Below, piece by piece: positions 18,647 to 49,128 of a stretch of DNA of 49,128 bases. Each line of letters begins with the position of its first letter. The first letter of the stretch is position 1. The position numbers and the translations under genes were made by a program. The notes beneath the pieces were generated by a model, which saw nothing but the letters and a program-made list of their open reading frames with translations, did not search any database and was not told the DNA's origin. Source of the DNA: a virus; the IMG/VR virus record IMGVR_UViG_3300027861_000044, positions 1 through 49,128 of that record; one strand, written 5' to 3'.

Positions 18647-19060
18647 TTAACCCGTAGCTTGCCCTAATATTTTAAATGTTACTTGAGAAATACCATATAT
18701 AGACGCTGGAGATATACTCCTATCTAGTTGGCCATCAAACCTAACTGTGTATTTATGGCCATCCGTTGGATGTTGCCATCTAAATGACCTACTCAAGCCA
18801 TTAGCTAATGCGGTGCTATGAAAGAATTTAAAAATGGTACCACTATCAGCCTCATTCAATACATCCCATTGTAGGCTAACCTTAAAGACGGTAGTGGAAT
18901 TGAAGGTTATCCTCTCCTCACTACCGTCATCACCTAAGTGTATTATTTGATTCTTATTGCCCATCTCATTTAATACACGTTGTGGTTCTATATTAAGCAT
19001 TGTGCTAGGATAATCCGCTGCTGCTGTACTTAGAAAATCCCACATTTCAAAAGCTGGCAT
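18647..19060 (-). CDS. Minor tail / distal tail protein candidate
   Basis: 137 aa, coupled to the tape-measure stop (shared A of TAATG). Beta-rich, with F-R-W-Q-H-P-T-D-G-H-K-Y-T-V-R-F, typical of small minor tail proteins coded right after the tape measure. By position it is the likely connector between tail tube and the 1039-aa tip. Confidence 0.7.
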   Translation of the reverse strand: MPAFEMWDFLSTAAADYPSTMLNIEPQRVLNEMGNKNQIIHLGDDGSEERITFNSTTVFKVSLQWDVLNEADSGTIFKFFHSTALANGLSRSFRWQHPTDGHKYTVRFDGQLDRSISPASIYGISQVTFKILGQATG

Positions 19061-27471: not shown

Positions 27472-28575
27472 TTATATGAAATTAACGTGCTCTGGTATAT
27501 CTGACTCCCTATGTGGCCATTCCATTGTTCCACCCTCTCTCATGTCCCACAAGTATTCATTGCATTTATGTTGTAAACATAATGTGCCGCACATTGTTCT
27601 AGCGTCAAACTTGTCTGATGCTATTAGACCCATTACCTCCCAGTATCTATCTGATTCCCACATTTCTTTAAAAGACTGTTCCGCTATATTTCCTATGTGA
27701 TACTTCTTATACTTTTCAGCAAATAGCATACCACATGGAGCTACTAGTCCAGATCCGCTAAACTGAGCTATGAGGGGAGGGCCATAACATCTACTGTATC
27801 GCCTCTTCCCCTCGCTCATTATTTTCGACCACTTAGCTGAAACTTGATAATCTTCCGTACTGAAACCCTCAGCATATTTCAATGTGTCAGTCAATGCTTC
27901 GTATTTTGAATAGTCTACGCCCAAGCTACCGTCTTCATCATCAGAACAATGCTTTATAACTAAATAATCAACTCCAAGGTGTCTTCCTAGTGCAGTCAAT
28001 GGTAGTACCTGATCCCCATATTGAGGCATCATGACCATTTGTAGGCCTATTGTGACCGGTAGCCCCATTTTCTTCTTTAATGCTACTGACGACCGTATAT
28101 TAGCTATTACACGTTTAAATTCAACGTCACCTACGCCATGGATTTCCTTGTATCTGTCAAGATGTCCGGCAGATATGTTGAATCTCAAGTATGTCAGCTT
28201 GGGCATTATGATTTCAAGCTGTTCCGGAGTAAGGAGATACCCATTCGTGCCCAATGCCATGTCTATTCCGTTTGACTTGCCCCTTAAGATAGCGTTTGTG
28301 AGGTGTGGAGAGCATGTCGATTCTCCATCACTTACAAAGCTTATGCCTTTAACTCCTATTTCAGCAGAGTCATCTAGGAAGCGATATATAACATCTTGTG
28401 TTATTTTTTGGGCATCGTTATCCTGGAGCGTAGCATAACAAAATTGGCAATTAAAACTACAGGATCTAGTTAAAGCGCAATCTATAGTGATTGGTGCTAC
28501 TCTCTCGCCAGCCAACCAAGCATCTACCCTATCTTTGTGCCATGCTAATTTATGGCCATCAAGTATTAATGTCAT
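27472..28575 (-). CDS. Radical SAM enzyme 1 with SPASM-like tail
   Basis: 367 aa. The radical SAM cluster C-S-F-N-C-Q-F-C (CX3CX2C) is at ~38-45; then S-D-G-E-S (the G-G-E equivalent) and G-T-N-G-Y. The C-terminal region has the SPASM pattern: A-P-C-G-M-L, G-N-I, W, then T-M-C-G-T-L-C-L-Q-H-K-C, room for a second Fe-S cluster. N-terminal H-K-L-A-W-H-K-D-R-V and the last residues H-V-N-F-I are shared with the enzyme at 31189. The ATG overlaps the preceding stop (ATGA). SPASM enzymes modify peptides or small molecules; substrate unknown. Confidence 0.85.
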   Translation of the reverse strand: MTLILDGHKLAWHKDRVDAWLAGERVAPITIDCALTRSCSFNCQFCYATLQDNDAQKITQDVIYRFLDDSAEIGVKGISFVSDGESTCSPHLTNAILRGKSNGIDMALGTNGYLLTPEQLEIIMPKLTYLRFNISAGHLDRYKEIHGVGDVEFKRVIANIRSSVALKKKMGLPVTIGLQMVMMPQYGDQVLPLTALGRHLGVDYLVIKHCSDDEDGSLGVDYSKYEALTDTLKYAEGFSTEDYQVSAKWSKIMSEGKRRYSRCYGPPLIAQFSGSGLVAPCGMLFAEKYKKYHIGNIAEQSFKEMWESDRYWEVMGLIASDKFDARTMCGTLCLQHKCNEYLWDMREGGTMEWPHRESDIPEHVNFI

Positions 28576-31188: not shown

Positions 31189-32268
31189 CTAAATAAAGTT
31201 AACATGATCATTTGGGTTCCTTAACTCCCAAAGATATCTGTTGCACTCATCCATCCTGCAATTTACACGACACTTACCGCAATTCATAGTGTTCTCTACC
31301 CACTTGAGGTTCTTAGCTCTTTTCTCTCCGTTCCATATATCTTCAAAGCATTCTTCGTATATATTGCCATAGTTGAAGTTAAATGTCTCCCTGCCTAGAT
31401 GAGCAGAGCATCCCCAGACATTACCACCAGCATCCATGTAAGACCAAAATGGAAGACCAAAGCATTTACTATATTCTCTTTGTTTTTTATTCCACTTGTT
31501 AATGGTGTGCGATCTGTAGATAACCTCGAAATCATCATCATTTAAATCCGAATCGAGAAGAATAGATCTCAAATTTCTAAGATCAGTGTATTTTATTTTC
31601 TCATATTTGTTAGTTTTACTCATTGTATGTTGTGAATATGGTTTTATAACAAAATAATCGGCACCGCACTCTTTCACTGTCTCAGCTAATAGGAGCATTT
31701 CATGTTCGTTTTCGGGCAAAAGGATAGATTGAACACCTATGGCACAATCCAAACCTTCCTCCTTTCTAAGTTTACATGCATGCTCTATATTGAATATAAC
31801 CTTATCAAAATCAGCAGGGCTTGTTTTATGTATATCCTTGTATAGCCCATTTGAACCAGCATTAACGCTGAATTTTACCCATTTTAAATGTGGGAGCACT
31901 AATCTAGACATCATTTTACCAAATTCAACACCGTTAGATGTCATGGCAACGTCTATTCCTCTATTTTTAGTGTGTTGAATTATATCAGCTATATATGGAT
32001 GAAGTAGGGGTTCACCTTCTCCGGCATACATTATACTTTTAACTCCAAGTGTCGCCAATTCGGAGACAGTTACTTTCAGTTGAGCAGTATCCAAGAATCT
32101 CTTCTCGTACTCCATGTAATCTAAAGCGCAGAATGTGCATCTATGATTGCATTGCCCAGACGGTGATATTTCCATGTAGATTGGGTATACCGTTTCACCA
32201 TTAAGCCAAGGCTGAACTCTGTCTGGATGATACATTAGCTTGTGACTATCTATATGATATTTGTCCAT
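31189..32268 (-). CDS. Radical SAM enzyme 2 with SPASM-like tail
   Basis: 359 aa. C-N-H-R-C-T-F-C (CX3CX2C) at ~40-47, G-E-G-E-P, T-S-N-G-V. The C-terminus has W-G-C-S-A-H, Y-G-N-I, I-W-N-G and then N-C-G-K-C-R-V-N-C-R-M-D-E-C, the SPASM-type second cluster. N-terminal H-K-L-M-Y-H-P-D-R-V-Q-P-W-L and the end D-H-V-N-F-I are shared with radical SAM 1. GGGGG ribosome site. Ends 10 bp before the transketolase N-half start, suggesting a joint pathway. Confidence 0.88.
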   Translation of the reverse strand: MDKYHIDSHKLMYHPDRVQPWLNGETVYPIYMEISPSGQCNHRCTFCALDYMEYEKRFLDTAQLKVTVSELATLGVKSIMYAGEGEPLLHPYIADIIQHTKNRGIDVAMTSNGVEFGKMMSRLVLPHLKWVKFSVNAGSNGLYKDIHKTSPADFDKVIFNIEHACKLRKEEGLDCAIGVQSILLPENEHEMLLLAETVKECGADYFVIKPYSQHTMSKTNKYEKIKYTDLRNLRSILLDSDLNDDDFEVIYRSHTINKWNKKQREYSKCFGLPFWSYMDAGGNVWGCSAHLGRETFNFNYGNIYEECFEDIWNGEKRAKNLKWVENTMNCGKCRVNCRMDECNRYLWELRNPNDHVNFI

Positions 32269-32279
32269 TTATCCCCCTT

Positions 32280-32483
32280 TCATTGAACTGTTCTAATCCA
32301 TATCTTTAAATCCTCAATAGGATTCTCACATCTGTAAGACCATTTTGCATGATCTTCCTTTATCTTAGATATTATATTTTCTATCCCATCATTCTTGGTA
32401 ACATATACATTACTTTCAACGCCGCACATACTACACTCGTACTCTATCAAATACAATTGACCCCCTCTATTTCCACGCTGCAA
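32280..32483 (-). CDS. Zinc-finger mini-protein, up to 67 aa
   Basis: Contains Y-E-C-S-M-C-G-V-E near the start and Y-R-C-E-N-P later. It overlaps the end of radical SAM 3 by 37 bp when begun at ATG 32483, but an alternative TTG start about eight codons on lies five bases from a GGGGG run at the overlapping stop and may be the real one (~59 aa). Function unknown. Confidence 0.6.
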   Translation of the reverse strand: MQRGNRGGQLYLIEYECSMCGVESNVYVTKNDGIENIISKIKEDHAKWSYRCENPIEDLKIWIRTVQ

Positions 32484-33301
32484 GTTCCGAATTCTTCAAA
32501 TCTATCGTTCTTAATTTTAATATCACAGGGGTTGCAATGGCCATACTCACTACATGTTCTAAAGCAAAAATGTATATCGGGCTTTTCATCAGTGATATGC
32601 GCTACTGGATTAATACAGCCATACAGATCAGAATGGCACCTATGTATATACCCACTAGGACTTATCAGCAACTCTGTGGTTTTACAATAAACGTCTTCCG
32701 TTTCTTTCTTGAAAAGTCCATCATATTTATAATGCCCCCACAAGACATCCTGGTACACACCCAGAAACTCTTTAGTCCTAAAATCTATATCGTATTTTTG
32801 GCAATAATCAATTATAGGTTGAATAGTTATAGATGGGTGCTCTACAGTGAAAAGGCCTATATCAAACCCAGCATCTTGTAAATACTTCACTTTATTAACT
32901 ACGCTTACAAGGTTATTCTGCTCAGGATGATAAGAAACTCTTATACTAGCATAAGGAACGTCTCTTGTCAACCTATTTGGATCAACTCTCTCAGCAAACT
33001 CTTTTACGTCAAAATCTAGATTGGTTAGAATGTCAATATAGAAGTCATCTTTTAAGCCGTTTATCACATCTATGAATCCGCTATACTTAGAAGGCTCACC
33101 ACCCTGAAGAGTGATGGGCACCTTCTTGTCTTTACTGAGCTGTAGTCTATTAATCCCTTCTATCCATTCCTCTGCTGACATCTCTTTCCTGCGCTTAAAG
33201 TCTCCGCACCTATTGATACAATATGAACAATTATATCCACATCTAAAGCTCAAGAAAACCGCAAAATAAGTTAATTCGTCAGGCAACACAAATGATTTCA
33301 T
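32447..33301 (-). CDS. Radical SAM enzyme 3
   Basis: 284 aa. C-G-Y-N-C-S-Y-C at ~21-28, Q-G-G-E-P-S (the G-G-E motif), L-T-N-L-D. The C-terminal region has many Cys: H-R-C-H-S-D, F-C-F-R-T-C-S-E-Y-G-H-C-N-P-C-D, probably binding extra Fe-S. Shorter than the other two and lacks their N-terminal H-K-L motif, but ends G-V-N-C-I, close to their V-N-F-I. Preceded by a run of nine G. Substrate unknown. Confidence 0.85.
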   Translation of the reverse strand: MKSFVLPDELTYFAVFLSFRCGYNCSYCINRCGDFKRRKEMSAEEWIEGINRLQLSKDKKVPITLQGGEPSKYSGFIDVINGLKDDFYIDILTNLDFDVKEFAERVDPNRLTRDVPYASIRVSYHPEQNNLVSVVNKVKYLQDAGFDIGLFTVEHPSITIQPIIDYCQKYDIDFRTKEFLGVYQDVLWGHYKYDGLFKKETEDVYCKTTELLISPSGYIHRCHSDLYGCINPVAHITDEKPDIHFCFRTCSEYGHCNPCDIKIKNDRFEEFGTCSVEIEGVNCI

Positions 33302-33313
33302 AATTCCCCCCCC

Positions 33314-36300
33314 CTATCTAAATCTAAAATTGAATGGAGCTGGCGGTGCTGTATCTTTTTCAAAAGCACCTATATCATATACGCCACCTTGTGGCCTACC
33401 AACTTCATCATGACCTAATCTTATATCTATACCATACAGGCTTTGAAACAGCCCATAGGTGAAATGTGAATCATTTTCATTTATTGCTGGAGATCCAGTT
33501 TGAAGCACAAAGTTTGTAGTCCCTAAAAACAACGGATCTGCTGGAGAGGGGCAATTTGTACATTCATTAGTGGCAACCTTCCATTCTGAATAAGATGAAT
33601 AGCGTGTGCCATTCCAAAAGAAATCTTCATCTCCATTAGAAAACAACATATAATCAATATTTAAATTGTCAGAATCGTAATCACTTATATACGCATTGTT
33701 AGTTCTAGTTTTAAGATCACCGCATATGTTACCACTTAATTCAACGGATCTATCTGTTCCAGAATCGTTACCATAGAATTGTACCATATCATCCATGGTA
33801 TTGTCAATAACATATAAATTACCGTAATCAGCAGCAGCATAGAACACTATACCGGTTCCTTGGTCAGAAGGCTCACCAGTAAATGCATTATCATTATCTT
33901 CTATATCCCAGATCTTGTTACCCATCAAGTAAGTATTGTATCCATCTGCACCAGATAATGTAGCTGATTGTCTGTAAAAGAAATTACAGTCATAAACTGT
34001 GTTAAATATTATCCACAATCTATCAGCACCATATTGCATTCCGAACGCATCACCTAATCCAGAATTGCCATGTTTTCTCATGTTATAGATAGTGTTTTGT
34101 GAAAATATTACATCCTGGCACACTTTGGCCCATAGTCCAGCCTGTCTACCTTGTGATATATTATTCCTACCAGCATAAATATGATTACAATATTGTTTAT
34201 ATTGAGGATCTTCTACCGCTGTGACCTGCATAGCATTGCCAGATATTCGCGTAAACGTGTTATCTAATACCCATACATTGTATGTTTCTAAGGAATTTTG
34301 CCATTCGCCTCTAGGCTGTATGCCATGAAAATCTTCATCTTCTGTGGTTTGCCAATCACCGAGAGAATCAAATATGTTGTTATAGATCACTATATCATGA
34401 GTGTAGCCTTCACCAGTACCTAGATCAGCGTCTATACCTATGCCTGAAGCATTGTGCGCCCAATCGTAATTTCTTATCCAAGAATTTCTGATGGAAATAA
34501 ATGAACAACCACCTTCTATTTTAAGTGCGCCCTCAGTATAGGTCGAGTTACCATTGAAGTCTATCTCTTCCATATAGACATAATCACAATCTCTTAATTC
34601 GTAATCACCTCTTATTATCGGCTCACTACCATCAATGCCTACTATCCATACCGGCTCTCCAGCCGTACCCTTCCAATCAGTGAATGTTCTTCCAGCCGAT
34701 GTATCGGTACCATGAAGCTCTACATAACTACCATCATCTAAGGTGTTAGGTATCGTGGCCCTTGGATTTGATGGGGTACCATAGGTGTTGCCAGTATCAT
34801 TACCAGTTTCAAAATTTATATAATAAAAATCTACCTGTTCTGTTGTCCATGGATCTAGCCTATCAGGTGTGACTGTATCTATTGGGTCTATGGTCCAAAC
34901 TAATCCTGGATCTGGGATACCTATTGGAGCTTCAAAGTCTCCCTCTGGTATTATATCCTTATCGAATGTATAGGCAGTTGACCCAACTATTCCCTTGTTG
35001 CTTGCTAGGTCATATGATACGGCATTTAATATTATAGTCTGGCCATTATCACCATCTATTAGTACAGATCCACCAAAGTATTGGATATCTGTACTGTCTG
35101 GCTGGCTACCATTAGTCGTATAGTAAGTAGTATTAGCATCAGATGCTTCATTTATTACAACATTTTGAGCTATAGCATATGTTCCAGTGCTAGGTGTAAA
35201 TGTTGGAGCATCTGGACCAACCGTATCCATAATAAAGGTGTATATTGCTATACCAATGGCTCCAAACCCAACATGCTCTCGGAAGGATATAGCTTTTAAT
35301 GTTACTACCTCACCGTCAGTACCAGATATTGGGATAGTTCCTCCATAATATATAGTATCAGAACTACCAGGATCAGTTCCATCAGTAGTGTACCATGTAA
35401 TTTGAGCATCAACATCTGGAATTATAGTTACATTTTGGGCAGATGTATAATTGCCTCCTACTGGATCAAAGGTGGGAGCATCTGGTACTTCTGGTGCATC
35501 ATAAAAAGAATATGTTGCAGCTCCAGTTATACCTTTACCATATTCATTGTATGAAACAGCTTTAAGCGTAACGAATTCGCCATCTGTACCGTTAACAGCT
35601 ATAGTTCCACTAATATATTCAGCATCAGCATTATTAGGATCAGTTCCATCTGTAGTATAGTAAGTGTTATCTGCATCAATATCTGGAATTATTGTAACAT
35701 CTTGTTGCCCAGTGTAACTTCCAGTATCAGGACTGAATGTAGGTGCATCTGGTGTGAGAATAGGAAGATCAAATGTATATATAGCAGACCCAACAACCCC
35801 TTTGCCTAGCTCATTATAAGATACAGCTCTGAGAGTTATGGTTTGACCATCAGTTCCACTTATAGATATAGTACCACCAATATATTCAGTATCAGTATTA
35901 TCTGGTTGACTTCCATCAGTAGTGTAATAAGTATTATCCGCACTAGCTGCTGGAGTTATTAAAACATCCTGCGCCTCATTGTAAGTTCCAGTCCCAGGAG
36001 AAAAAGTTGGTGCTGATGGTGCTGTATCAGTAACACCGGTGTATTCAAATGCACCCATATCCCAATTAGCACCTTGATATCTACTGACTTCGTTGAAGTC
36101 AACCCTTATATCAATGCCGTACCGATCATAAAAAGTTTGATAAACATCATGTTCTATATTAGCATCTATAGCAGGAGATAATTCCTGTAATGTAAAATCA
36201 TCAGAATCAATATCAGTAAAAAGTGGATCTGCATCAATACAATCATCGCAATTATTAGTAGCAGCAAAGAAAGAACCTAAGTCATTATATATCGACCCGC

Positions 36301-39300
36301 CCCAACTAACTCTCATACCATGTGTTTCATCATAAAGTACGTTGTAATTAGCTAAACTTCTAGAAGCTAAATCGCCTGGAATATGAAATTGATAATCATT
36401 GTCTCTGATTTCAGATATAATGTTACCTTTTATTATATATGCACCAGCACCAGGATTACTAGCTATACCTCTATTAACATTATATATAGTATTATCTATT
36501 ATATATTTAGTCATATTGTCAGAAGTACAAGCAAATCCGCAACCAGGGCTATAATCTTCACTTTGGTTATAAGTAGAATTATATTCCAAACAATCATATA
36601 TTTTATTACCTATAATATAAGCGTCCCAAGCATTGGCTCCGGCATTTGTGCTAGACTGCCTTATGCCGTACTGGTTATCATATGTTTTATTATATAAAAA
36701 CCACAATCTATTAGTGCCGTATTGCCAGCCTAAACCAGTTCCAGGTTGTGGCCCGTGTGTTCTTCCTCCAAATGCCGTATTTTGACTAAAGATAACATCG
36801 GTCGAAGATTTCGCCCAAAAAGATGCTTGCCTGTTATAGCTACCTATATTATTACCAACATAAACATTATGACAGAATGGAGCGTCTGCGGGTTGAGTTC
36901 TTCCAGTTACCTGAACACCATTCCCGCTTATATGATAGAACGTACTATTTAATACCCATATATTATAAGTATAACAAGATTCTGATGGGTTGCCTCCAGG
37001 TTGAAATCCATGAAAATCTGGGTCATCTGATCCCGTATAATCCCACTCACCTAATTCTTCAAAATTACAATTATAAAGTATTATATCGTGACAATCATTA
37101 TTATCAGAATATATAGCTTTAGGACTTATACCCATTCCAGATGCGTTACCCGCATATAAATAATTTCTAAAATTAGAATTTCTGACACAGATATAGTCTG
37201 CCCCTTGAATGACAATCCCACCCTTAGTGAACGTATTGTTGCCATTGAAATCTATATTTTCTATTATAACATAATCGGCATTCCTTATTACAGTGTTGCC
37301 TCTTATTACTCCTTTATTGTCAGAGGATTGTCCTCTTATCCAAATAGGATTATCGGCAGTTCCGCTCCAACCACCCATATATCTTTCGACTGATCCGTCA
37401 TCAATGCCATGAACTTCAACGTATGCTCCAGCGGATAGGGTTCCTGGAATTGTAGCTCTAGGTGCTGATGGTGTTCCGTATGTTCTGCCTGTATCAGTAC
37501 CACTAGTAAAATCTATATAATAATAGCCAGCCTGTTCTGTAGTCCAAGGATTAGGCCTTGCTGGAGCATCACTGGTGATAGGATGTGTAGTTCCCCATAA
37601 ACCTGGGTCCGGAATACCTATTGGTGGAGTGTAATCCGTAACTGGTGGATCTGTTTTGTCAAATGTATACACAACAGATCCTATATCACCTTTATTGCCA
37701 GCAGTGTCATAAGATACAGCTCTCACTGTGATAACTTCCGTATCACTCCCATCCACTGTAAAAGCACCGGTATATAATGTATTAGTATTGTCTGGATCTG
37801 TCCCATTGGAAGTATAATATGTAGCTGATGCATCTACCGGTTCGTTCACAACAACGCTCTGGGCAGTATTGTAAGTGCCAGTGCTAGGTGTAAATGTTGG
37901 AGCATCTGGACCAGTTAAATCGAAAGTGTATAAAGCTGATCCAACACTTCCTCTACCAACTTCATTATATGACACAGCTTTTAGTGCCACCATTATGCCA
38001 TCTCCACCACTTATACCTATAGTTCCACCAATATATTCAGTATCAGTATTATCAGGCTCAGATCCGTCTGTAGTATAGTATGTGTTATCAGCACCACTAT
38101 CCAATGTTAATTGAACATTCTGTGGTAAATTATATTCTCCAGTATCTGGATTAAATGTTGGTACTATTGGAGTTGTTGGTTCAGGTGATCCAGTAAAGAA
38201 TTCATTAATATATTCTTCAAGATTCACATACCCATCCCCATTTCTATCTGTAAATGCGTCTGATGAATCATTGGGATTTAGGCTTCTGGCTGTCTCCCAA
38301 CTATCTGGCATACCATCATTATCCGTATCATTTGGGTAGGTGCCGGAAGCTATAGTTGGATACCCACCCACTGAAGCTGGATCACTGATATGTGCTCCTG
38401 TACCGTTTTGAACATCCAAAACGACCCTTAAATCAACAGAATCTCTAGACGGTACTATGGCACCAGAACTACCAAGAATTATACTTAAAATATCATCGGA
38501 AGAATCGGTGCTAATTCCAGATGGAGTAAATTGCATAGATGAACTAAAATTAGGCGTATAGTCAACTCTAAATGCTGCTATCTCTGGATATGATGAATCT
38601 GGCCTACCATAACCTATGTTATCTAACCCGTAAACCCTTGATGCAGGAAGTACATCGTGTCCCGATCTTAATCCATTAGCGTTCTGTATATATAATGGGG
38701 TATTGGTACCGTTTATTTGATAATTACCAATAGCATGAGAGAATTGGGGTTGATCATTGGAGTTTTGCCCATGGCCAGAGTATCTTATAGCGAACCACCC
38801 TGGGTTATACATTACATTGTTAATGACTTCTGTTGGAGATGCAGCATTTAAGTATGTTTGTATATTGTTACCACCACCTATGAGTGGATTTCTATCATCA
38901 TTATGAGCAAATAAGTTATGATGACAGCTAATATAAGAGTTGCCTGGACCAAACAATACTGACATACCATGTGGCAATAATGCTTCGCTAAATATATTCC
39001 ATGAATATGTTATATTATTGGCTGCAAACCAAATAGTGGAAGTTTCGTCTCTAGACCAACTCATGGAATTATGATCAAGTATTATATTGTAAGGTTCATT
39101 CGAGCTACTTTCTATGCCTAAACAATCATTATTGCCATTGTTTACATTATTTAAACCTATACGTATACGTAAACCACGTATTATTACATTATTAGTTCTG
39201 ACTCTGATGCCATAATCTCTTATTAATATACCACCGCCTGGGGCTGTTTGACCAGCTATGGTTACATATGGATTATTTATTGATATTTCAGAATCCAAAT

Positions 39301-39547
39301 CTATAGTACCACCAGTTTTGAACACTATTATTCTATTACCACCAGAACAAGCTTCCCTTAAACTGCCAGATCCACTATTATTAGTATTAGTGACAAATAC
39401 TACATTGCCACTATTACGACCACCTATAGTATCAGATCCCCAACCCTCCGCTCCTGGAAACGCAGGAAGGGCATTGACTGATATAGGTGCAAACAAGCAA
39501 CTAAAAAATATAATAATAAATATCAAAATTGTCTGGATTTGTTTCAT
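33314..39547 (-). CDS. Giant secreted pectate-lyase / chitobiase-repeat protein
   Basis: 2077 aa. Signal peptide ending near V-N-A (residue ~26). Residues ~27-400: PL1-type pectate lyase beta-helix (F-P-G-A-E-G-W-G, I-A-G-Q-T-A-P-G-G-G). ~403-450: Ca-binding T-D-N-D-G-M-P-D-S-W and R-N-G-D-G-Y. Two chitobiase C-terminal-like repeats (~460-630; Y-Y-T-T-D-G-S-E-P-D-N), a second beta-helix (~640-1165), four more repeats (~1170-1535), and a third beta-helix (~1540-2060) duplicating the second. Ends F-N-F-R-F-R. Likely exported to the cell surface, or a depolymerase; an exported protein in a virion operon is odd. No transmembrane anchor seen. Confidence 0.88.
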   Translation of the reverse strand: MKQIQTILIFIIIFFSCLFAPISVNALPAFPGAEGWGSDTIGGRNSGNVVFVTNTNNSGSGSLREACSGGNRIIVFKTGGTIDLDSEISINNPYVTIAGQTAPGGGILIRDYGIRVRTNNVIIRGLRIRIGLNNVNNGNNDCLGIESSSNEPYNIILDHNSMSWSRDETSTIWFAANNITYSWNIFSEALLPHGMSVLFGPGNSYISCHHNLFAHNDDRNPLIGGGNNIQTYLNAASPTEVINNVMYNPGWFAIRYSGHGQNSNDQPQFSHAIGNYQINGTNTPLYIQNANGLRSGHDVLPASRVYGLDNIGYGRPDSSYPEIAAFRVDYTPNFSSSMQFTPSGISTDSSDDILSIILGSSGAIVPSRDSVDLRVVLDVQNGTGAHISDPASVGGYPTIASGTYPNDTDNDGMPDSWETARSLNPNDSSDAFTDRNGDGYVNLEEYINEFFTGSPEPTTPIVPTFNPDTGEYNLPQNVQLTLDSGADNTYYTTDGSEPDNTDTEYIGGTIGISGGDGIMVALKAVSYNEVGRGSVGSALYTFDLTGPDAPTFTPSTGTYNTAQSVVVNEPVDASATYYTSNGTDPDNTNTLYTGAFTVDGSDTEVITVRAVSYDTAGNKGDIGSVVYTFDKTDPPVTDYTPPIGIPDPGLWGTTHPITSDAPARPNPWTTEQAGYYYIDFTSGTDTGRTYGTPSAPRATIPGTLSAGAYVEVHGIDDGSVERYMGGWSGTADNPIWIRGQSSDNKGVIRGNTVIRNADYVIIENIDFNGNNTFTKGGIVIQGADYICVRNSNFRNYLYAGNASGMGISPKAIYSDNNDCHDIILYNCNFEELGEWDYTGSDDPDFHGFQPGGNPSESCYTYNIWVLNSTFYHISGNGVQVTGRTQPADAPFCHNVYVGNNIGSYNRQASFWAKSSTDVIFSQNTAFGGRTHGPQPGTGLGWQYGTNRLWFLYNKTYDNQYGIRQSSTNAGANAWDAYIIGNKIYDCLEYNSTYNQSEDYSPGCGFACTSDNMTKYIIDNTIYNVNRGIASNPGAGAYIIKGNIISEIRDNDYQFHIPGDLASRSLANYNVLYDETHGMRVSWGGSIYNDLGSFFAATNNCDDCIDADPLFTDIDSDDFTLQELSPAIDANIEHDVYQTFYDRYGIDIRVDFNEVSRYQGANWDMGAFEYTGVTDTAPSAPTFSPGTGTYNEAQDVLITPAASADNTYYTTDGSQPDNTDTEYIGGTISISGTDGQTITLRAVSYNELGKGVVGSAIYTFDLPILTPDAPTFSPDTGSYTGQQDVTIIPDIDADNTYYTTDGTDPNNADAEYISGTIAVNGTDGEFVTLKAVSYNEYGKGITGAATYSFYDAPEVPDAPTFDPVGGNYTSAQNVTIIPDVDAQITWYTTDGTDPGSSDTIYYGGTIPISGTDGEVVTLKAISFREHVGFGAIGIAIYTFIMDTVGPDAPTFTPSTGTYAIAQNVVINEASDANTTYYTTNGSQPDSTDIQYFGGSVLIDGDNGQTIILNAVSYDLASNKGIVGSTAYTFDKDIIPEGDFEAPIGIPDPGLVWTIDPIDTVTPDRLDPWTTEQVDFYYINFETGNDTGNTYGTPSNPRATIPNTLDDGSYVELHGTDTSAGRTFTDWKGTAGEPVWIVGIDGSEPIIRGDYELRDCDYVYMEEIDFNGNSTYTEGALKIEGGCSFISIRNSWIRNYDWAHNASGIGIDADLGTGEGYTHDIVIYNNIFDSLGDWQTTEDEDFHGIQPRGEWQNSLETYNVWVLDNTFTRISGNAMQVTAVEDPQYKQYCNHIYAGRNNISQGRQAGLWAKVCQDVIFSQNTIYNMRKHGNSGLGDAFGMQYGADRLWIIFNTVYDCNFFYRQSATLSGADGYNTYLMGNKIWDIEDNDNAFTGEPSDQGTGIVFYAAADYGNLYVIDNTMDDMVQFYGNDSGTDRSVELSGNICGDLKTRTNNAYISDYDSDNLNIDYMLFSNGDEDFFWNGTRYSSYSEWKVATNECTNCPSPADPLFLGTTNFVLQTGSPAINENDSHFTYGLFQSLYGIDIRLGHDEVGRPQGGVYDIGAFEKDTAPPAPFNFRFR

Positions 39548-39552
39548 ATTTT

Positions 39553-40476
39553 CTACTTATCTAATATAGATTCCACAGTTTCAAAAACCAATTTAGGTTC
39601 TATGGTGTTCATGCACGACTGCTCTTTACAACATTCAGTATATAAACAAGGTACACAGTCGCTTTCAGCTATCAACATTTTACTATTGCCATACATATAA
39701 ACTTCAGTATTAGATGTGGGGCCAAATAAGCCTACTGCATCGACTCCGTATCCCATAGCAAGGTGTAGCCCTAAGCTATCACATGTAACTATCAACTCGC
39801 ATCTATTTATCCATTCAATGTATTCATTTAAATCTTTTGCCCCTTGCTGAACTCCAATGGAATATCCGTTTTTAACTAATAGCCCACCAAGTGTCTTCCA
39901 ATGTGATTTAGGCCAAGACTTATTATTCCATTTACCACCTACTTTAAAGTTAATGCCTACATCGTATTTTTTTCTAATATTACCTATAGGAGGTACAATG
40001 TAACGTTCTCCAGCCCAAGACATGCCTATTATTTCAAAGAGCACATCCTGCCATGTTCGGTCAGCTTCTCTTTTTCTATCTAAGCTATTATACACATAAT
40101 ACGCTTCATGATTGTTTTTATATGGCTTAACTGTTCCATCTTTTGAATCAAATCTAAATCCATATTTACTCCATGCATTTATCTGATCTGCCAAAGCACA
40201 TATACCAGGAACTTTTTCCAAATTGATAACAATATCATACTGTTCTTGCTGTAGTTGCAATATAGAATTTATATTATATATAAGTATCCTATCTAAATAA
40301 TTTATCCCATGAAGCAAGGGATATGCTTTCTCATCAGTTAACCATGTAACATGATCATTAGAAAAACAATGTAATATTGGTGTTGTCCTTACTATATCCC
40401 CCAAACTACACTCATCGCTGATTCCAGGATCTAATGTTTCAGAATGACCAGTTTTGATTATTAAAATTTTTGACAT
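39553..40476 (-). CDS. Heptosyltransferase-like glycosyltransferase (GT9)
   Basis: 307 aa from ATG 40476 (M-S-K-I-L-I-I-K), which lies behind GGAGGGGG; the ATG at 40488 is in the ribosome site itself. N-terminal S-L-G-D-I-V-R-T-T-P-I is the GT9 signature. The C-terminal half has N-N-K-S-W-P-K-S-H-W, C-D-S-L-G-L-H-L-A-M-G-Y-G and V-G-L-F-G-P-T-S, the GT9 donor-binding pattern, then a Cys-rich end. GT9 enzymes transfer heptose or similar to LPS core. Acts here either on host surface glycan or on a virion glycan. Last gene of the island, 7 bp from the connector gene. Confidence 0.85.
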   Translation of the reverse strand: MSKILIIKTGHSETLDPGISDECSLGDIVRTTPILHCFSNDHVTWLTDEKAYPLLHGINYLDRILIYNINSILQLQQEQYDIVINLEKVPGICALADQINAWSKYGFRFDSKDGTVKPYKNNHEAYYVYNSLDRKREADRTWQDVLFEIIGMSWAGERYIVPPIGNIRKKYDVGINFKVGGKWNNKSWPKSHWKTLGGLLVKNGYSIGVQQGAKDLNEYIEWINRCELIVTCDSLGLHLAMGYGVDAVGLFGPTSNTEVYMYGNSKMLIAESDCVPCLYTECCKEQSCMNTIEPKLVFETVESILDK

Positions 40477-40495
40477 ATCCCCCTCCATGTTTATA

Positions 40496-41101
40496 TTAAA
40501 ATCTATTATCGAACACCTTATATGGAGACAATAAGAATTCTGAACCCTGTGGTATTTTCAACAAACCACCGGACTGGAATGTTGTTATAGTATCTTCTCT
40601 ATTTTCATACCAATGCCCAATCATCAACACCATAGCGTGTCTAATTGGAGCAGGTACACTTGTAGAGTTGTCACCATACCCAGCAACATATTCTATTCTT
40701 ATTGGATTAACGTTATGTAATGTTTCTGAGGGCCATTGCTCGTTGTAATCAATGTAAATTCTAGGTGTAGCACTAGCTGAATCAGTCTTGAAAATAGTTG
40801 ACCCTATCGTAATAGAGCTGCTATCGGTATCTTTATAGGTTATAATAGGAGCAGTGCCAGTAGAAAGAGGTGAATTGGATAGTTGAAAATGTTCACATGG
40901 CCAATTGTCGTAATATTCATACCATGTTTGATTGACAAATCTTCTTCCTGTTATATTCTCAGCTTGTAATGTGGCAGCATCAATAAGACTATCGAAAAGA
41001 AGATCTTCATCAGTATTCCCAACATCAAGTCTTAGTTGACGCTTCACATCTTCTTTATTTAAAGGCTTGAATAAAGAAGATGTTTTTAATTGTCTTTTCA
41101 T
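40496..41101 (-). CDS. Head-tail connector (HK97 gp6-like)
   Basis: 201 aa. N-terminal V-K-R-Q-L-R-L-D with D-E-D-L-L-F-D-S-L-I-D-A-A-T, helical core of the gp6/QLRG connector family; later R-I-E-Y-V-A-G-Y-G and P-A-P-I-R-H-A-M-V-L-M-I-G-H-W-Y-E-N-R-E, both hallmarks. It adapts the portal to the tail. Normally followed by the gp7-like gene, here displaced by the island. The upstream gene ends right beside its start. Confidence 0.85.
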   Translation of the reverse strand: MKRQLKTSSLFKPLNKEDVKRQLRLDVGNTDEDLLFDSLIDAATLQAENITGRRFVNQTWYEYYDNWPCEHFQLSNSPLSTGTAPIITYKDTDSSSITIGSTIFKTDSASATPRIYIDYNEQWPSETLHNVNPIRIEYVAGYGDNSTSVPAPIRHAMVLMIGHWYENREDTITTFQSGGLLKIPQGSEFLLSPYKVFDNRF

Positions 41102-41491: not shown

Positions 41492-41887
41492 TTAAGTTGA
41501 GCTAGATGGATCTAATATATGTATAGCCCAAGAACTAATGGTTACTGTATCATTTGTTGTTAGTGATCTTGTTGTACATTGCGTAACATAAATAAGCGTA
41601 GTACCACTGATTATACTTATATGTCTAGCTACTCCTGCTGATGTACCAGAACTTCCTTTAGGTGTTATGTCAGTAGTTTTAGCTATTGGAAGTTTTCTTC
41701 CAGATAGTGTACTATTTGCTATAGCTGCAAAATCCAAATCTGTGCTTATAGCCATCAAGTTACCAGTACTTGTAGCTTCAGCTTTAGTTTGTGGTTGGTA
41801 TGAGGTATTTATTATTATTTTATGACCCGTTGTACTTAACCAATCAAAGCCTTTTTGTGCCAACACGTCGTTCATCCAAAGTCCCAT
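41492..41887 (-). CDS. Hypothetical structural protein, 131 aa
   Basis: Beta-rich, Thr/Ser-rich, with A-Q-K-G-F-D-W-L, a helix that may dock to the head, then T-L-I-Y-V-T-Q-C-T-T. Preceded by AGGGAGAACAAT. Small Thr-rich proteins of this kind are often coded between capsid and connector genes. Function is by position only. Confidence 0.7.
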   Translation of the reverse strand: MGLWMNDVLAQKGFDWLSTTGHKIIINTSYQPQTKAEATSTGNLMAISTDLDFAAIANSTLSGRKLPIAKTTDITPKGSSGTSAGVARHISIISGTTLIYVTQCTTRSLTTNDTVTISSWAIHILDPSSST

Positions 41888-41980: not shown

Positions 41981-44900
41981 TTATTTCTTAGTCTTAAAAA
42001 AGTTGATATTACGAATTGTTTTAAAAAAGTAAGAAGTCTTTTTAGCAACATAATTACTCACCTCTGATTTAGTTATAAATTCTTTTACCCCAAACGGTAT
42101 AATTCTCTTAACGTATACTATTTGAGATACAATCTTATGTATACTTCTACTAGCAAATAATGTTATTTTTAAAAATAAAGGGAACCTAAATTTAGCTATT
42201 GTTTTATGTATAGAGTCTTTTACAAATTGTTTAATTTTAAGCAAAAGTGCGAAATTCGCTTCAGGTATTGTTTTTTGTATTACACGCATAGCTTTAAGTG
42301 TAAATCTTATTCCTAATACAAGAACAGTAGATGAAGTTCTATTAAAAGCATCGTGTGAAGCTAGTATCAAATCAATAACAAAACTTCCAATACTAGATAC
42401 TTGCTTATGTACAATGTCTTTTGTTGATAAAATAAATTTCCTAGACAAATTATATGGCTGGAAAACACCTATCTTATGTAATGGATCTATAATGAATTGT
42501 TTTATTTTTATATAGAAAAAAGATCTAGCACTAATTATTTGGCTTATTGCTGTCTTAGTTGTTAATGTAAACTTTAAAAGCAACGCAGAAATTTTAGATA
42601 CTTGCTCATGAATGGCACTTTTTATATTCAATGCCAATATATTGTGGTTTAATTTTATCTCTGATATTTGTTTATTAAAAGCATCGTGGCCTCTAAGAAA
42701 TAGATCTAAAAATAAACGTAATGGTTTAGCTATCACATGTTGATGAATAGGTTTAAATGGAAATAACGTTAATGAATTGAATATGAATTCTTTAATTTCT
42801 GTTACTTGCAAAATAATAGTATTCTTGACCCATAAAGTTAATACCGCAGATAACCCTATAGGTTTAGATATTATCTGGCTACTCAATGCGTCATTGACTA
42901 TCTGTTTTATTCTTAATACTAATCTTCTTTTTTGAGCAATTTGCTTATGAATAGTTCTCTTCGAAATTATTGGAGATCTGTTAATGATGCCCTTAATTTC
43001 TATTATTTGTTGGTGTAATGCATGTTTAGAAAATATCTCAAGCAGATTTATAATGACAGCTTTTATTACTGTTATTTGCCTATGAATAACATCTTTAGAT
43101 AGTATCAAAAAGCTTAACAATATTTCAAACGGCCTAGTAGGAACATGCTGATGTATAGCATCGTTAACTGTTTGCTTGATTCTCAACAATAAGTCTAAAT
43201 TGGTTTTTACACCCTTCCTATTGTGCCCCCACTTAATACCGCTAACCCATCCAGCATCGTTTTCCCACACTGAACCACCAAAAGTGTCTATTCGTTCATC
43301 TGATGGTATATTCTTATGTAACAAAGTTTTGATCAATAGAATTACTAAACTCAATACTTCGGTCATTGTTGGCAATTGCTTAATAATTGTATCTTTACAA
43401 AAAACAATGATCTTATTAGCATTTAGCTTTATCTCTGATATCTGTTTATTAAAAGCATCAATGGAATTTAATACAATGCCAATAAGAAAACCCAATGGCT
43501 TAGATACTAATTGCCCCTGAAAGCTATCCCTTATTGATAAAAATAGTTCAGTCAGAAATAAGCTAGATTTTTTAACTACATGCTCATGTAGCGCATGATA
43601 CGTTTGTATCAATATGTTATACGCACTCAATGAAAAAGGAGTAACTATCTGCTTGTGTATAGAGCTTTTAGTAAAATTAATTAGATTTAAGAATAACCTT
43701 AAATTGGACCTCAATGACCCGTCACCGGCAGTAGTTGTTTTACTTAATTCATCCGATGCATCAGATTCAAAATCATTAGTATCATACGCTTTAACTACTA
43801 TATACCAAGTTTGCCCATCGTTTGGGAGAGTTATCTCGTATGTTAAAACATCACCAAGGTCACCACTGTCGTTTGGATAGGGGCCACCCAATGTTGTCCC
43901 CCAAAAAACTTTATAATATTCTAAATCTGGATCTAGGACAGCATCCCAATCTAAATTAAAGGTATTAACGCCTTCATGTTTCTCTACAGTCATTACTCTA
44001 TGTAGGGCATTTCTAATAAATAAAATAGCACCTTCATAAACATCCATAACCTCTGATATCTGCTTGTTAAAGGTATCCCTTACAAACAGAATATACCCAT
44101 CAACAACACTAGTTATCTTAGATATGTGTTGATGTATCGCCACCTTGGTACTTAATATATATGTAGCTATTACGCTTTTAATATTTGTTATTTGGTTATG
44201 AATAGTGTTAATAACGCTTAACAATATAGTATCCAGCAATAGATTCTGTATATTGGTTATCTGATTATGTATTATACTTTTTATAGCTAGAGATATTCTT
44301 CCCAATAAGCCATTAATTTGAGTCATTTGTTGATGTATCGTATTCTTTACATTCACATATGCATTTAGAAAAAGATTCTTCAATGACGTAACTTGGCTAT
44401 GTATGGCGTTTACAATTCTGAGCTTAACCTTCCCATACAAAGATGGTTGGTTATAAATACCCAATTCGGGGATTACTGTATCTATCTCTAATTCCTGATC
44501 ATTTACAATGCCACCACCAGGAATTATATATGATATTATTTTATCTAATATTGGCTTTATCAAGGCCACTATGTTAGTTATATTTTTATGTATCGAGCTT
44601 TTAGCATTCAGCAGCAGACTATAGAAAATTGATTTACCAGGAGAAAAATGCTTATGAATAGTATTTTTTATAGCGAATGTGTAATTATTCAATATTGCTT
44701 TCCATACTTCACCAATATTCAGATGGATGGCATTTAAAATCAACAATACAACTTGTTGTACAACACCCCTTATAGATGATATATGTTGATGTATGGTGCT
44801 TTTTGATGCTAATATGAATTCGTTCAGAAACGCTTTAACATCAACCATGTGTTGATGTAGCGAATCCTTGGATGATAATGCAAATTCATTTAAAAACGCC

Positions 44901-46480
44901 TTTACATTAACTATATGTTGATGCAATGAATCATTTAGATCCAATATTATTACATTAAATAATTTGCTTATTTTCGATATTTGTTGGTGTATAGTATCTC
45001 TTATAAAAAGAGAAGTAAATACTGTTAAATTTAATACATTAGCTACGTGCTGGTGTATTGTATCTTTAAGATTTAATGCTAATGATACGGCTTTTTTTAT
45101 TTTCGGAATAATATGTTGATGAATTGTATTTCTAATTACTAAAGATAAAAAACTACCAGAATATCTCTGAGCATACACACCCGAATCTGGGATCACCATT
45201 TCTGTGCGTATTGAATCATCATTAATAATACCAACACCAGGAACAATATATTGATGTTTAGTAAAGAGTCTAACTAACGGAAATTTATTAACTATGTGTT
45301 GATGTATAGTACTTTTTATTGATAAATTAAATTTATTTAAAAAAGATTTAACATTTGTTACTTGTTGATGAATAGCATCTTTACTTGATACTATGGATAG
45401 TACTATTAGATTTAGTATATTGACTACTTGTTGATGTATCGTATCTTTGAGTAATAATATTACAAACGCTATAACGGGGAAAAAATTAGTTATACTTTGA
45501 TGTATTGCATCATATGAATCTAATGTGACTAGGGGATCTATATATTCATATACCCCTATATCCCATGTGGAAGTTCTTGTTTTTTCTGTTATATCGTCTA
45601 AATATATTCCACTACTAGGATTATCCGTACCACCACCTACTAAATTACCTCCAGATTTTAATGTAAAATCATCATTTGGGTAATCTGTAAATTCGTTATC
45701 CCAGTCACCGCCAGATGGAGTCTGATCATTACTACCCTCTCCACTATCAGTAGCGCAATAATCAATTGTAATTGAGCCATCAAAATCATCATTGCATCCA
45801 AAAACCACACAATTTTTAGCATTATGGGTTCCACTACCACCTTCTTCTATCCCAGTCCTACAATTATGAACAGTGCAATTGAAAAAATCAGTATTATCAG
45901 CTCTTGATTCAATGCCTTTGAATTCTGAGTCTGTTCCACTCACAAAATCATATACTAAGCAATTATATATATAAGCATTGCTTATTTCCGTATCATCTAT
46001 GTATATTCCCCTAGCACCACCAGTGCCACTACATACTCCTTTAACTATACATCTCTCGACTCTAATGTCTGTAGTTGTTTGAGATCCGAAATCATTAGCA
46101 TTGATTCCATAACGAGAACCATTAGTAGCTGTTACTAAAACCTGTAGCTTATTAACCCTGCAATAAGCCTCCTCTATATTAATTCCATATGTAGTATCGT
46201 CATCTAAATGTAATACATACTTCGATGCATCCCATTTTCCATCTGATGGGAAATCACTGCCCTCTATTAATATGTAATTATTTGATCCAGTAGTCCAGTT
46301 TCTAAACTGTACTTGAGCAGTATCAGCAGTGCCAGTTGTAGCTTGACAATAAAAAGTTATAGTATTACCATCACTAACTAAATCATCATAGGTAGCCACT
46401 TCACCTGCTTCAGCAAGTGCTAATGATGAATAATCACCAGAAACACCATCAGTATCTACGGTCGTGGTGATGCTTGCCAT
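41981..46480 (-). CDS. Giant 22-aa-repeat protein with beta-helix head
   Basis: 1499 aa. Residues ~1-315 form a right-handed beta-helix (I-R-V-E-R-C-I-V-K, N-A-Y-I-Y-N-C-L-V, ending W-D-I-G-V-Y-E-Y). Then about 42 copies of a 22-residue repeat centred on [DNS]-[TAS]-I-H-Q-[HQ]-[IV], separated by hydrophobic L/I/F stretches, broken by an Fn3-like domain at ~833-917 (L-D-P-D-L-E-Y-Y-K-V-F-W-G-T) and by inserts P-G-[VG]-G-I-[IV]-N-D (two copies). Strongly hydrophobic yet with no signal peptide. Probably a fibre or head-decoration protein. The last residues are basic. Confidence 0.85.
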   Translation of the reverse strand: MASITTTVDTDGVSGDYSSLALAEAGEVATYDDLVSDGNTITFYCQATTGTADTAQVQFRNWTTGSNNYILIEGSDFPSDGKWDASKYVLHLDDDTTYGINIEEAYCRVNKLQVLVTATNGSRYGINANDFGSQTTTDIRVERCIVKGVCSGTGGARGIYIDDTEISNAYIYNCLVYDFVSGTDSEFKGIESRADNTDFFNCTVHNCRTGIEEGGSGTHNAKNCVVFGCNDDFDGSITIDYCATDSGEGSNDQTPSGGDWDNEFTDYPNDDFTLKSGGNLVGGGTDNPSSGIYLDDITEKTRTSTWDIGVYEYIDPLVTLDSYDAIHQSITNFFPVIAFVILLLKDTIHQQVVNILNLIVLSIVSSKDAIHQQVTNVKSFLNKFNLSIKSTIHQHIVNKFPLVRLFTKHQYIVPGVGIINDDSIRTEMVIPDSGVYAQRYSGSFLSLVIRNTIHQHIIPKIKKAVSLALNLKDTIHQHVANVLNLTVFTSLFIRDTIHQQISKISKLFNVIILDLNDSLHQHIVNVKAFLNEFALSSKDSLHQHMVDVKAFLNEFILASKSTIHQHISSIRGVVQQVVLLILNAIHLNIGEVWKAILNNYTFAIKNTIHKHFSPGKSIFYSLLLNAKSSIHKNITNIVALIKPILDKIISYIIPGGGIVNDQELEIDTVIPELGIYNQPSLYGKVKLRIVNAIHSQVTSLKNLFLNAYVNVKNTIHQQMTQINGLLGRISLAIKSIIHNQITNIQNLLLDTILLSVINTIHNQITNIKSVIATYILSTKVAIHQHISKITSVVDGYILFVRDTFNKQISEVMDVYEGAILFIRNALHRVMTVEKHEGVNTFNLDWDAVLDPDLEYYKVFWGTTLGGPYPNDSGDLGDVLTYEITLPNDGQTWYIVVKAYDTNDFESDASDELSKTTTAGDGSLRSNLRLFLNLINFTKSSIHKQIVTPFSLSAYNILIQTYHALHEHVVKKSSLFLTELFLSIRDSFQGQLVSKPLGFLIGIVLNSIDAFNKQISEIKLNANKIIVFCKDTIIKQLPTMTEVLSLVILLIKTLLHKNIPSDERIDTFGGSVWENDAGWVSGIKWGHNRKGVKTNLDLLLRIKQTVNDAIHQHVPTRPFEILLSFLILSKDVIHRQITVIKAVIINLLEIFSKHALHQQIIEIKGIINRSPIISKRTIHKQIAQKRRLVLRIKQIVNDALSSQIISKPIGLSAVLTLWVKNTIILQVTEIKEFIFNSLTLFPFKPIHQHVIAKPLRLFLDLFLRGHDAFNKQISEIKLNHNILALNIKSAIHEQVSKISALLLKFTLTTKTAISQIISARSFFYIKIKQFIIDPLHKIGVFQPYNLSRKFILSTKDIVHKQVSSIGSFVIDLILASHDAFNRTSSTVLVLGIRFTLKAMRVIQKTIPEANFALLLKIKQFVKDSIHKTIAKFRFPLFLKITLFASRSIHKIVSQIVYVKRIIPFGVKEFITKSEVSNYVAKKTSYFFKTIRNINFFKTKK
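42040..45530 (-). repeat. 22-aa (66-bp) I-H-Q-H repeat array
   Basis: About 42 units with period 22 residues, clearest where neighbouring units read D-T-I-H-Q-H-V, D-T-I-H-Q-Q-I, D-S-L-H-Q-H-I, D-S-L-H-Q-H-M. Units drift toward the C-terminus, where H and Q are often replaced by K/S (H-K-Q-I, F-N-K-Q-I-S-E-I-K). Confidence 0.9.
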
Positions 46481-46873: not shown

Positions 46874-49128
46874 TTAAAAACTCTTAGTCACCTTTGGATC
46901 TACATAGACTGGTATAGTAGTTCCAGCTACACAAGCCCAAACAGTATGTACTCCTGCCTGACCATTTGTTGTGCTAACAGCTACTTTCATTTTTTGATCA
47001 TCTATACCTACACCATCAGTCCATGTTAAACCACTAGCAGTTAACGTAGATGCCGCCACCAATATATCCGATGATCTACTAGTCCTATCTACATTACCTT
47101 TTGCACCTAGAGCGGATGTTGGATGCTCTATTTCTAACCAAAATTGATTATTTTTAAGCTCTACATCATCTGTGATTAATTCAACTGTTAATGTTGGGTT
47201 TGCAGCAGTGGAGTACAAATCAGCTAATTTAAATCTTAATGGCCTAGACCATACAGTAGTTCGTGGCGATGCTGTCATTTTGACACTGTAACCGTTTGTG
47301 CCATTATATGTAGCATCTGCATATACATCAGTATTAGTTTCAACAGTACCAGAAAAACTCTGTTCTTTTAATTGATAAATTATATTTGAACCAGAGCAAG
47401 AATGGGTTTCTATAAAGACATTGCCATTTGAAATAGTTCCATTATATAATGACGGTTCAGACCCATTTTGTAATTTACATCTCTTTAATAGTACCTGGGA
47501 GTTATATTCAGTTCCACCAAAGAAATAATCCCCACTATCCATATCTGACAAATCTAAATCTTCACAAACTACATGGCCACCTCTAGTATCGGCAGTAAAT
47601 AAATTCCCATTAGCTAAATTAGAAGCACCAGTAAATTGACCACTCCTCCAAAACAACTGCCCCTTGTCTATAGATATACTTCCCGCTGTTATTTGATTAT
47701 AGTCAACATTTTCCCATATATAAACATGGTCAGAATTTGCTCCACCAAATGTGCAATTATCATCTACATCCAACTTGCAATCTCTTAGGATTATAGTTCC
47801 AGCTCCGTTATGCCATAAGTTATCACTGGCATCAAAATAAATACCGGTATATATAGTGTTAGCATCCAATATTAAATTGTTAGCTCCACTTGTACCTATT
47901 CTACCACCCCCAGAAGCCATAGTTTCGTAAACTTGTGGTATCGTACTGGCGGCAGCTCCTATGGAGAATTTAGTATAAGACTCAACTCCTAAATCATCAT
48001 TGGCTGCGAAAAAGAATGAACTACCTGCTGAGATTCCGAGGTAAACTTCACCCCTATCAGTAGAATCTAGAAGTGTTAATTTACCAGTAGACCCAACAGA
48101 GAAAACTGATATGCCTCCAAAATTGTTAGCAGTATATAGAAACCCATTATCATCCACAGTTACATCAACAACTAAACCACCTGGATCTACAGTATCTATA
48201 TATGTTAAAGCTCCAGTTGAACCTACTGAATAGGACAACACACCTTGGTCATAATTAGCTAGAAACACAAAAGATGAGCCTACAGCCACGCCTCTAGCAT
48301 TACCACCTTGGTCGTCTGCATCTATATAAGTAAGATCACCAACTCCATCTACTGACAATGATCTTAGCCCACCATTATCACTTGCATAGAATACAAAAGA
48401 AGATCCAACAGCTACTCCAAAACCAGAACTTCCAGCGTTATCGTAAGTATCTATGTATGTTAAAGCTCCAGCCCCATTAACCGAATACGATAAAAGTCCT
48501 TGACTGCCATTAGCTAAGAATAGGAAAGATGACCCCACTGCAACTCCTTTAGCTGAACCACCTTGATCGTCTGAATCTATATATGTAATATCGCCAGCTC
48601 CGTCTACAGAGTAGGAGTTTAGGCCATCTGAACCTTCTGCTACAAATACAAAAGAAGTCCCTACAGCAACATCGTTAGGGCCTCCCCCTTGATCGTCAGC
48701 GTCTAAAAGGGTTAATGACCCGTCACCGGCTACAGAAAATGACATTAAACCTGAACTATTATCAATAACATACATAAAAGAAGATCCTACTGCTACACCC
48801 CTCATATCATTTGCTGCTAAATTAGTATCCTTATAATCTAGATATGTGGTACCAGCAGTACCATTACCACCAGCGTTAGGTTTTCCTATTTGGTTGTATG
48901 TATCCAAACCACCCACACCATTAGCAACTAATACAAATTTCTCGTTACCGCTAATACCTAATGCTGTAGATGATGCCCTATCAGTAGAGTCTACTAAAGT
49001 CAAATTTCCATTACCAGCTACAGAATAGACTGATATTCCTCCAATGGAATTGGCAAGGTATACATAATCACCATCAACCGAAACACAAATGGCTGTAGAT
49101 CCACCTTGAATATCGCTATCTATAAATG
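46874..49128 (-). CDS. Beta-propeller repeat protein, N-terminus outside window
   Basis: The frame stays open to the right edge; a TTG at 49003 is not a credible start because the repeat continues past it (S-I-G-G-I-S-V-Y-S-V-A-G). About 750 residues are visible. The first ~390 are at least nine ~42-aa blades with consensus G-V-A-V-G-S-S-F-V-F-L-A-N and L-L-S-Y-S-V-x-G-x-G-x-L-T-Y-I-D, close to LVIVD-type propellers. The rest is a Thr/Ser-rich beta-structured region ending T-K-S-F, likely a virion attachment domain. Cell-surface binding is plausible. Confidence 0.82.
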   Translation of the reverse strand, partial: FIDSDIQGGSTAICVSVDGDYVYLANSIGGISVYSVAGNGNLTLVDSTDRASSTALGISGNEKFVLVANGVGGLDTYNQIGKPNAGGNGTAGTTYLDYKDTNLAANDMRGVAVGSSFMYVIDNSSGLMSFSVAGDGSLTLLDADDQGGGPNDVAVGTSFVFVAEGSDGLNSYSVDGAGDITYIDSDDQGGSAKGVAVGSSFLFLANGSQGLLSYSVNGAGALTYIDTYDNAGSSGFGVAVGSSFVFYASDNGGLRSLSVDGVGDLTYIDADDQGGNARGVAVGSSFVFLANYDQGVLSYSVGSTGALTYIDTVDPGGLVVDVTVDDNGFLYTANNFGGISVFSVGSTGKLTLLDSTDRGEVYLGISAGSSFFFAANDDLGVESYTKFSIGAAASTIPQVYETMASGGGRIGTSGANNLILDANTIYTGIYFDASDNLWHNGAGTIILRDCKLDVDDNCTFGGANSDHVYIWENVDYNQITAGSISIDKGQLFWRSGQFTGASNLANGNLFTADTRGGHVVCEDLDLSDMDSGDYFFGGTEYNSQVLLKRCKLQNGSEPSLYNGTISNGNVFIETHSCSGSNIIYQLKEQSFSGTVETNTDVYADATYNGTNGYSVKMTASPRTTVWSRPLRFKLADLYSTAANPTLTVELITDDVELKNNQFWLEIEHPTSALGAKGNVDRTSRSSDILVAASTLTASGLTWTDGVGIDDQKMKVAVSTTNGQAGVHTVWACVAGTTIPVYVDPKVTKSF
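47965..49128 (-). repeat. ~42-aa beta-propeller blade repeats, nine or more
   Basis: Tandem ~126-bp coding units, several sharing long blocks such as G-V-A-V-G-S-S-F-V-F-L-A-N and S-V-D-G-x-G-D-[LI]-T-Y-I-D. The two units nearest the right edge are more divergent. The array runs past the window. Confidence 0.9.

Follow-up and report, generated by a model that had tools for sequence, protein, structure and literature searches.

The virus contig IMGVR_UViG_3300027861_000044 of IMG/VR, analysed here over its 49,128 nucleotides (the window), encodes on its minus strand a protein (41981-46480) that consists for the most part of tandem units of 22 or 23 residues. Sequence comparison places this protein in a family of tailed-phage repeats with the motif D-A-x-H-x-H, of which it is a divergent and unusually hydrophobic member. 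We propose that it is the shaft of a fibre or other appendage of the virion, that it is assembled with a small partner protein and that its units form a beta-solenoid. Taken as a whole, we regard this reading as moderately probable, and a fibre role, a solenoid fold and a position near the neck are the most likely assignments for the protein.

The repeat array and the D-A-x-H-x-H family

An iterated position-specific unit profile detected 42 clean units and one overlapping pseudo-hit between residues 314 and 1456, with unit scores of 17-40 bits, while the highest score in 20 shuffled copies was 8.4. Units followed each other at 22 residues in 24 cases and at 23 residues in 13, four longer gaps carried inserts, and the autocorrelation of the array at lag 22 had a z of 19. 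The preliminary description of this DNA had put the number of 22-residue repeats at about 42, which agrees with these results. It had also called the motif [DNS]-x-I-H-Q-x-[IV] near-invariant, and this was overstated: the array contains nine strict matches. The best kept positions are I/V17 (34/42 units), D/N/S11 (33/42, with D alone in 19), H14 (32/42), L7, which is the most conserved hydrophobic position (29/42), and I13 (28/42), followed by Q15 (16/42). Position 16 is Gln in 20 units and His in 11, and both His are retained in 11 of the 42. A known Pfam repeat covering the array was looked for, and searches of Pfam, NCBIfam and PHROG gave no model that covers it. Two weak similarities were rejected. 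The apolipoprotein family PF01442 reached 15.9 bits against a gathering cut-off of 90, which we judge to be an artefact of the 22-residue period; a relative from the beta-predicted D-A-x-H-x-H family gave a similar weak match. Tape-measure proteins of Ruminococcus and Coprococcus, matched by tblastn at E ~1e-3, have helical 11-mer repeats and were set aside.

Phage proteins with a D-A-x-H-x-H repeat of the same period had been mentioned in the preliminary description, and such proteins do exist. Using tblastn against isolate phages, protein XAI95683 of Microcystis phage Mae-JY22 was found (E 6e-5), which is made of D-A-x-H-x-H units of 22 residues; among 50,697 isolate phage records the family queries matched Mae-JY22 alone. 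A scan of the IMG/VR viral_contigs with an exact DNA pattern yielded 101 stretches with two D-A-x-H-x-H motifs 22 codons apart. From these, 96 distinct open reading frames (ORFs) gave 958 units, with 778 spacings of exactly 22 residues. His is present in 98% of these units at position 14 and in 87% at position 16, where Gln occurs in 8%; H-x-Q units were seen in other members too (L071 and L163). Searches of Pfam and NCBIfam returned no name for this repeat and a literature search did not find a description of it. D-A-x-H-x-H is an unnamed repeat family that is common in uncultivated phages (about 100 contigs). Patterns modelled on the window's own motif were unproductive in viral_contigs: exact DNA patterns for [IL]-H-Q-[HQ]-[IV] pairs gave zero matches, as did a K-D-x-I-H pair pattern. 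A looser version of the former gave one chance match adjoining a reverse-transcriptase-like gene, and the best repeat scores in 14 genome contigs obtained with it were at background level.

Several sequence tests tie the window array to this family. The two unit profiles fit in register 0 alone of the 22 possible registers (mean -23, versus -50 to -60 at other offsets). With each profile scored against its own background composition they correlate at 0.305; of 2000 permuted profiles, each taken at the best of its 22 registers, two came up to this value, and the reversed profile attains 0.305 as well, as expected for a palindromic unit. Comparison of the window with the family by hhalign gave an E of 3.8e-4 and a probability of 36, and BLASTP with the Mae-JY22 protein included an in-register ungapped alignment of 143 residues. 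A further link is formed by L163, an AT-rich array from the loci that were fetched with the partner gene, with units like NDTIHLQTTEN and DTLHQHLTDD. Its BLASTP match to the window had an E of 1.7e-14, versus 0.003 to the reversed sequence. A hidden Markov model (HMM) of L163 and other hydrophobic or AT-rich members, chosen partly by their likeness to the window, gave this array a score of 59.5 bits (E 3.6e-18). None of the 400 controls, half of them shuffled and half with permuted columns, exceeded 15 bits, and the reversed array remained below threshold. The window repeat and that of the family share the period of 22, the in-register residues L7, I/V9, D11, A/T12, H14 and H/Q16, prolines toward the unit's end and the partner gene. 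The window array differs in having Ile at 13, 17 and 20, Lys at 10 and Gln for the second His, and also in its many 23-residue units, its four inserted domains and its helix-like hydrophobic periodicity.

The partner gene and a probable place at the head-tail junction

The small gene at 41492-41887 belongs to a family that accompanies the repeat. In 30 loci selected by the repeat pattern alone (at least five units, 1.5 kb on both sides) the partner family was found in 29, on the same strand throughout. Of the 61 ORFs that the window's partner matched in the fetched loci, 58 came from loci picked solely by the repeat pattern and bearing an annotated ORF of this kind. In the reverse direction, D-A-x-H-x-H ORFs turned up in 59 of the 80 loci for which the partner family was the sole query, the two contig sets overlapping in part. 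Ten of 52 family members matched phrog_3758, a virion structural protein, and one of the 52 weakly matched PF23140, fibre I of podophage GP4 (E 0.013); the partner profile had no match in the PDB. Partner genes were present in three isolate phage records, namely those of Mae-JY22, CRP-6 and Octadecabacter DB virus 2. Mae-JY22 is the sole isolate phage found to have the repeat, and its partner protein is XAI95681. The partner lies between the portal gene and two 'putative tail fiber' genes, one of them collagen-like, in CRP-6, and between genes labelled 'tail tubular' and 'tailspike', followed by gp11, in DB virus 2. In the window the head-tail adaptor gene comes two genes downstream, and at other loci of the family the genes nearby include those for head-tail adaptor, portal, major head protein and terminase.

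Because the partner adjoins these portal, tail fiber, tail tubular and tailspike genes, we propose that the repeat protein, whose gene lies close to those of the head-tail adaptor, would be the shaft of a fibre or appendage and would assemble with the partner protein near the head-tail junction. The N-terminal beta-helix and the inserted domains could then serve as contact modules. Fibres at the neck or adaptor have precedents in Anabaena phage A-1(L), which has neck fibres (PMC10966104), and in fibre I of GP4. The likeness drawn here concerns the attachment and not the sequence of the repeat, and both are taken as leads, not as tests.

Other repeat proteins occupy the position beside the partner. 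The gp11 of DB virus 2 (MW805364.1, L200 7065-8591) is labelled ribonuclease E but is actually a 22-residue tandem repeat protein. Like the family it lies near the partner and keeps Q3, H5, L7 and P21; unlike the family it has Ser or Ala in place of His 14 and His 16. It is probably kin to the family, as BLASTP matched it to members, but HMM controls failed to confirm this. In CRP-6, gp60 (MK613348.1, L199 8287-9753) occupies the fibre slot adjoining the partner and is, like the window protein, built of repeats, but these are of the collagen-like G-x-y type and unrelated in sequence. At another partner-family locus the long neighbour (L129 9845-14278) has a different repeat of 23 residues (LAGSIAAQSALSGDLKVTRK), which suggests that repeat types are exchanged in the slot beside the partner.

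Fold of the unit and alternative readings

An AlphaFold 2 (AF2) model of eight units of the family member L027, with 25 aligned members, was a regular beta-solenoid with a predicted template modelling score (pTM) of 0.53 and strands at positions 5-12 and 15-19 in every unit. A search of the PDB with this model gave nothing at E <= 0.001 and a search of BFVD gave one uncharacterised podovirus protein. In the window array a single spot in the unit receives the 23rd residues, all the inserts and the prolines of positions 18-22, and the solenoid model has coil at this spot. In its amino-acid make-up the array matches L163. Because of these strands, the location of the inserts and extra residues and the likeness to L163, we favour a beta-solenoid over a helix by roughly two to one. 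Each unit would form one turn, composed of a strand at about 5-12, a corner, a strand at about 15-19 and a loop from 20 to 3. This loop would accommodate the extra residues, the prolines and the inserted domains (the Fn3-like one and others), which would decorate the shaft.

Several observations weigh against parts of this reading. Firstly, the appendage role is a prediction from gene neighbourhood and repeat architecture. Secondly, with regard to family membership, there is the selection of intermediates described above, an HMM built from the whole set, in which GC-rich members predominate, fails to report the window, and a strict-consensus HMM scores the window and the reversed window alike; since D-A-x-H-x-H-x-A-D is palindromic, a comparison with the reversed sequence tells nothing about the strict motif. 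Thirdly, with regard to the fold, the solenoid model had a predicted local distance difference test score (pLDDT) of 59 and no confident PDB match, and AF2 folded eight window units (six alignment rows) into one long helix, with a pTM of 0.28. Window hydrophobicity peaks at 95-100 degrees in every block (hydrophobic moment z ~8), as in the phage's tape-measure protein, and the 130-degree peak of the relatives is absent, whereas L163 and L071 have no helix-like peak. The helical ladder suggested in the preliminary description may or may not be present: the model of the window fragment is a helix and that of the relative a beta-solenoid.

Since 22 residues make six helical turns, the array could instead be alpha-helical, an amphipathic helix or coiled-coil rod that either changed fold from the D-A-x-H-x-H repeat or resembles it by mere convergence. 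We consider this unlikely, but it is the alternative that best survives. Besides the hydrophobic periodicity it draws on the pLDDT of 70-80 across the first 50 residues of the helix model, on positive correlations in the array at lags 4 and 11 with a negative one at lag 2, and on the weak likeness to tape-measure proteins with 11-mer repeats. However, the low pTM of that model came with pLDDT values of 37-45 in the other four models and an alignment of just six rows. The 23rd residue in thirteen units, 14 prolines at positions 18-22 and four inserts at one place are ill-suited to a continuous helix, on which the conserved L7 would lie on the polar face. Ile and Val make up 22% of the residues while Ala and Glu are scarce, and the apolipoprotein match is shared with a protein of the beta-predicted family. 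Slightly less likely again, in our view, is a switch of fold, from beta-solenoid to amphipathic alpha-helix, in a fibre repeat whose 22-residue period, register and signature residues stayed as they were.

Binding of metal by paired His along a fibre, as raised in the preliminary description, is improbable. The D-A-x-H-x-H relatives, with both His in most units, would suit it, but in the window the second His is mostly Gln, and gp11 of DB virus 2, a probable relative in the equivalent slot, has Ser or Ala at both positions. Judged from the units, the conservation pattern can be explained without metal binding; on the preferred solenoid the His and Gln positions would rather form a stacked structural ladder than an enzyme or metal site. 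Least probable of all is that the repeat protein serves not as a fibre but as another tape-measure-like protein or as a scaffold. Weak PHROG tape-measure matches (E 4e-4 and 0.012) can be cited for this, but the phage already encodes a tape measure at 19060-22635, and the repeat protein starts with a beta-helix domain, carries domain inserts and has its gene next to that of the partner, on the upstream side of the head-tail adaptor.

Feature layout and meaning of the module

The features of the repeat gene and its module are listed in Table 1. The beta-helix that the preliminary description placed before the array is supported by homologues with 36-37% identity in L001 and L002 (tblastn) and a weak phmmer match to the fucoidan lyase 7xze (E 1.7e-4), while the Fn3-like insert was recognized by eye and a Pfam search gave no Fn3 match. 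HMM domains of 7-21 bits were located at residues 467-591, within block 2. In block 5 several units end in K-P, and a unit with an IKQ strand comes back every 4-6 units, which hints at larger duplications inside the array.

Table 1. Features of the repeat gene, its partner and the module landmark in the window.
Feature	Position	Strand	Basis or remark
ORF of the repeat protein	41981..46480	-	1499 aa, ATG start, one open frame
Beta-helix-like N-terminal domain, aa 1-313	45542..46480	-	tblastn relatives L001, L002; weak phmmer match
Repeat block 1, 4 units, aa 314-401	45278..45541	-	unit profile
Insert 1, aa 402-440, IVPGVGIINDD...VIPDSGVY, similar to insert 2	45161..45277	-	read from sequence
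Repeat block 2, 9 units, aa 441-639, nearest block to D-A-x-H-x-H family	44564..45160	-	unit profile; HMM domains
Insert 2, aa 640-680, IIPGGGIVNDQ...VIPELGIY	44441..44563	-	read from sequence
Repeat block 3, 7 units, aa 681-835	43976..44440	-	unit profile
Fn3-like insert, aa 836-928	43697..43975	-	read from sequence
Repeat block 4, 6 units, aa 929-1063, often 23 residues	43292..43696	-	unit profile
Insert 4, aa 1064-1096, WENDAGWVSGIKWGH	43193..43291	-	read from sequence
Repeat block 5, 16 units, aa 1097-1456, many 23 residues	42113..43192	-	unit profile
Basic C-terminal tail, aa 1457-1499, repeat-free	41984..42112	-	read from sequence
Partner gene, small virion-protein family, 131 aa	41492..41887	-	61 phmmer hits in fetched loci
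Head-tail adaptor gene, module landmark	40496..41101	-	phrog_442, E 4.2e-19

Some further genes of the window, each on the minus strand, were noted. Upstream of the repeat gene, 46874-49126 encodes a lactonase-type seven-bladed propeller with tandem blades that runs past the window end. Directly downstream of the head-tail adaptor and within the structural module is a glycosyltransferase of family 9 (heptosyltransferase; 39553-40488), and 33314-39547 encodes a protein of 2077 aa with a pectate-lyase-like N-terminus and repeated CHB_HEX_C_1 and Fn3_assoc domains. Three genes that match phage radical SAM families (27472-28575, 31189-32268 and 32447-33301) are located in the interval that separates the head-tail adaptor from the neck and tail genes.

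The window protein exposes a widespread unnamed repeat family, with about 100 IMG/VR contigs from one exact-pattern scan versus one of 50,697 isolate phages. It is an extreme variant of this family, and its interest lies mainly in the module and in the question of fold that it poses, where one repeat gives opposite secondary-structure signals. The conserved partner gene marks the repeat as part of a putative fibre module at the head-tail junction. Within this module, fibrous repeats with no relation to each other (22-mer, collagen-like and of other periods) seem to replace one another in a single slot, and the slot may provide a handle for annotating host-contact proteins of uncultivated phages.

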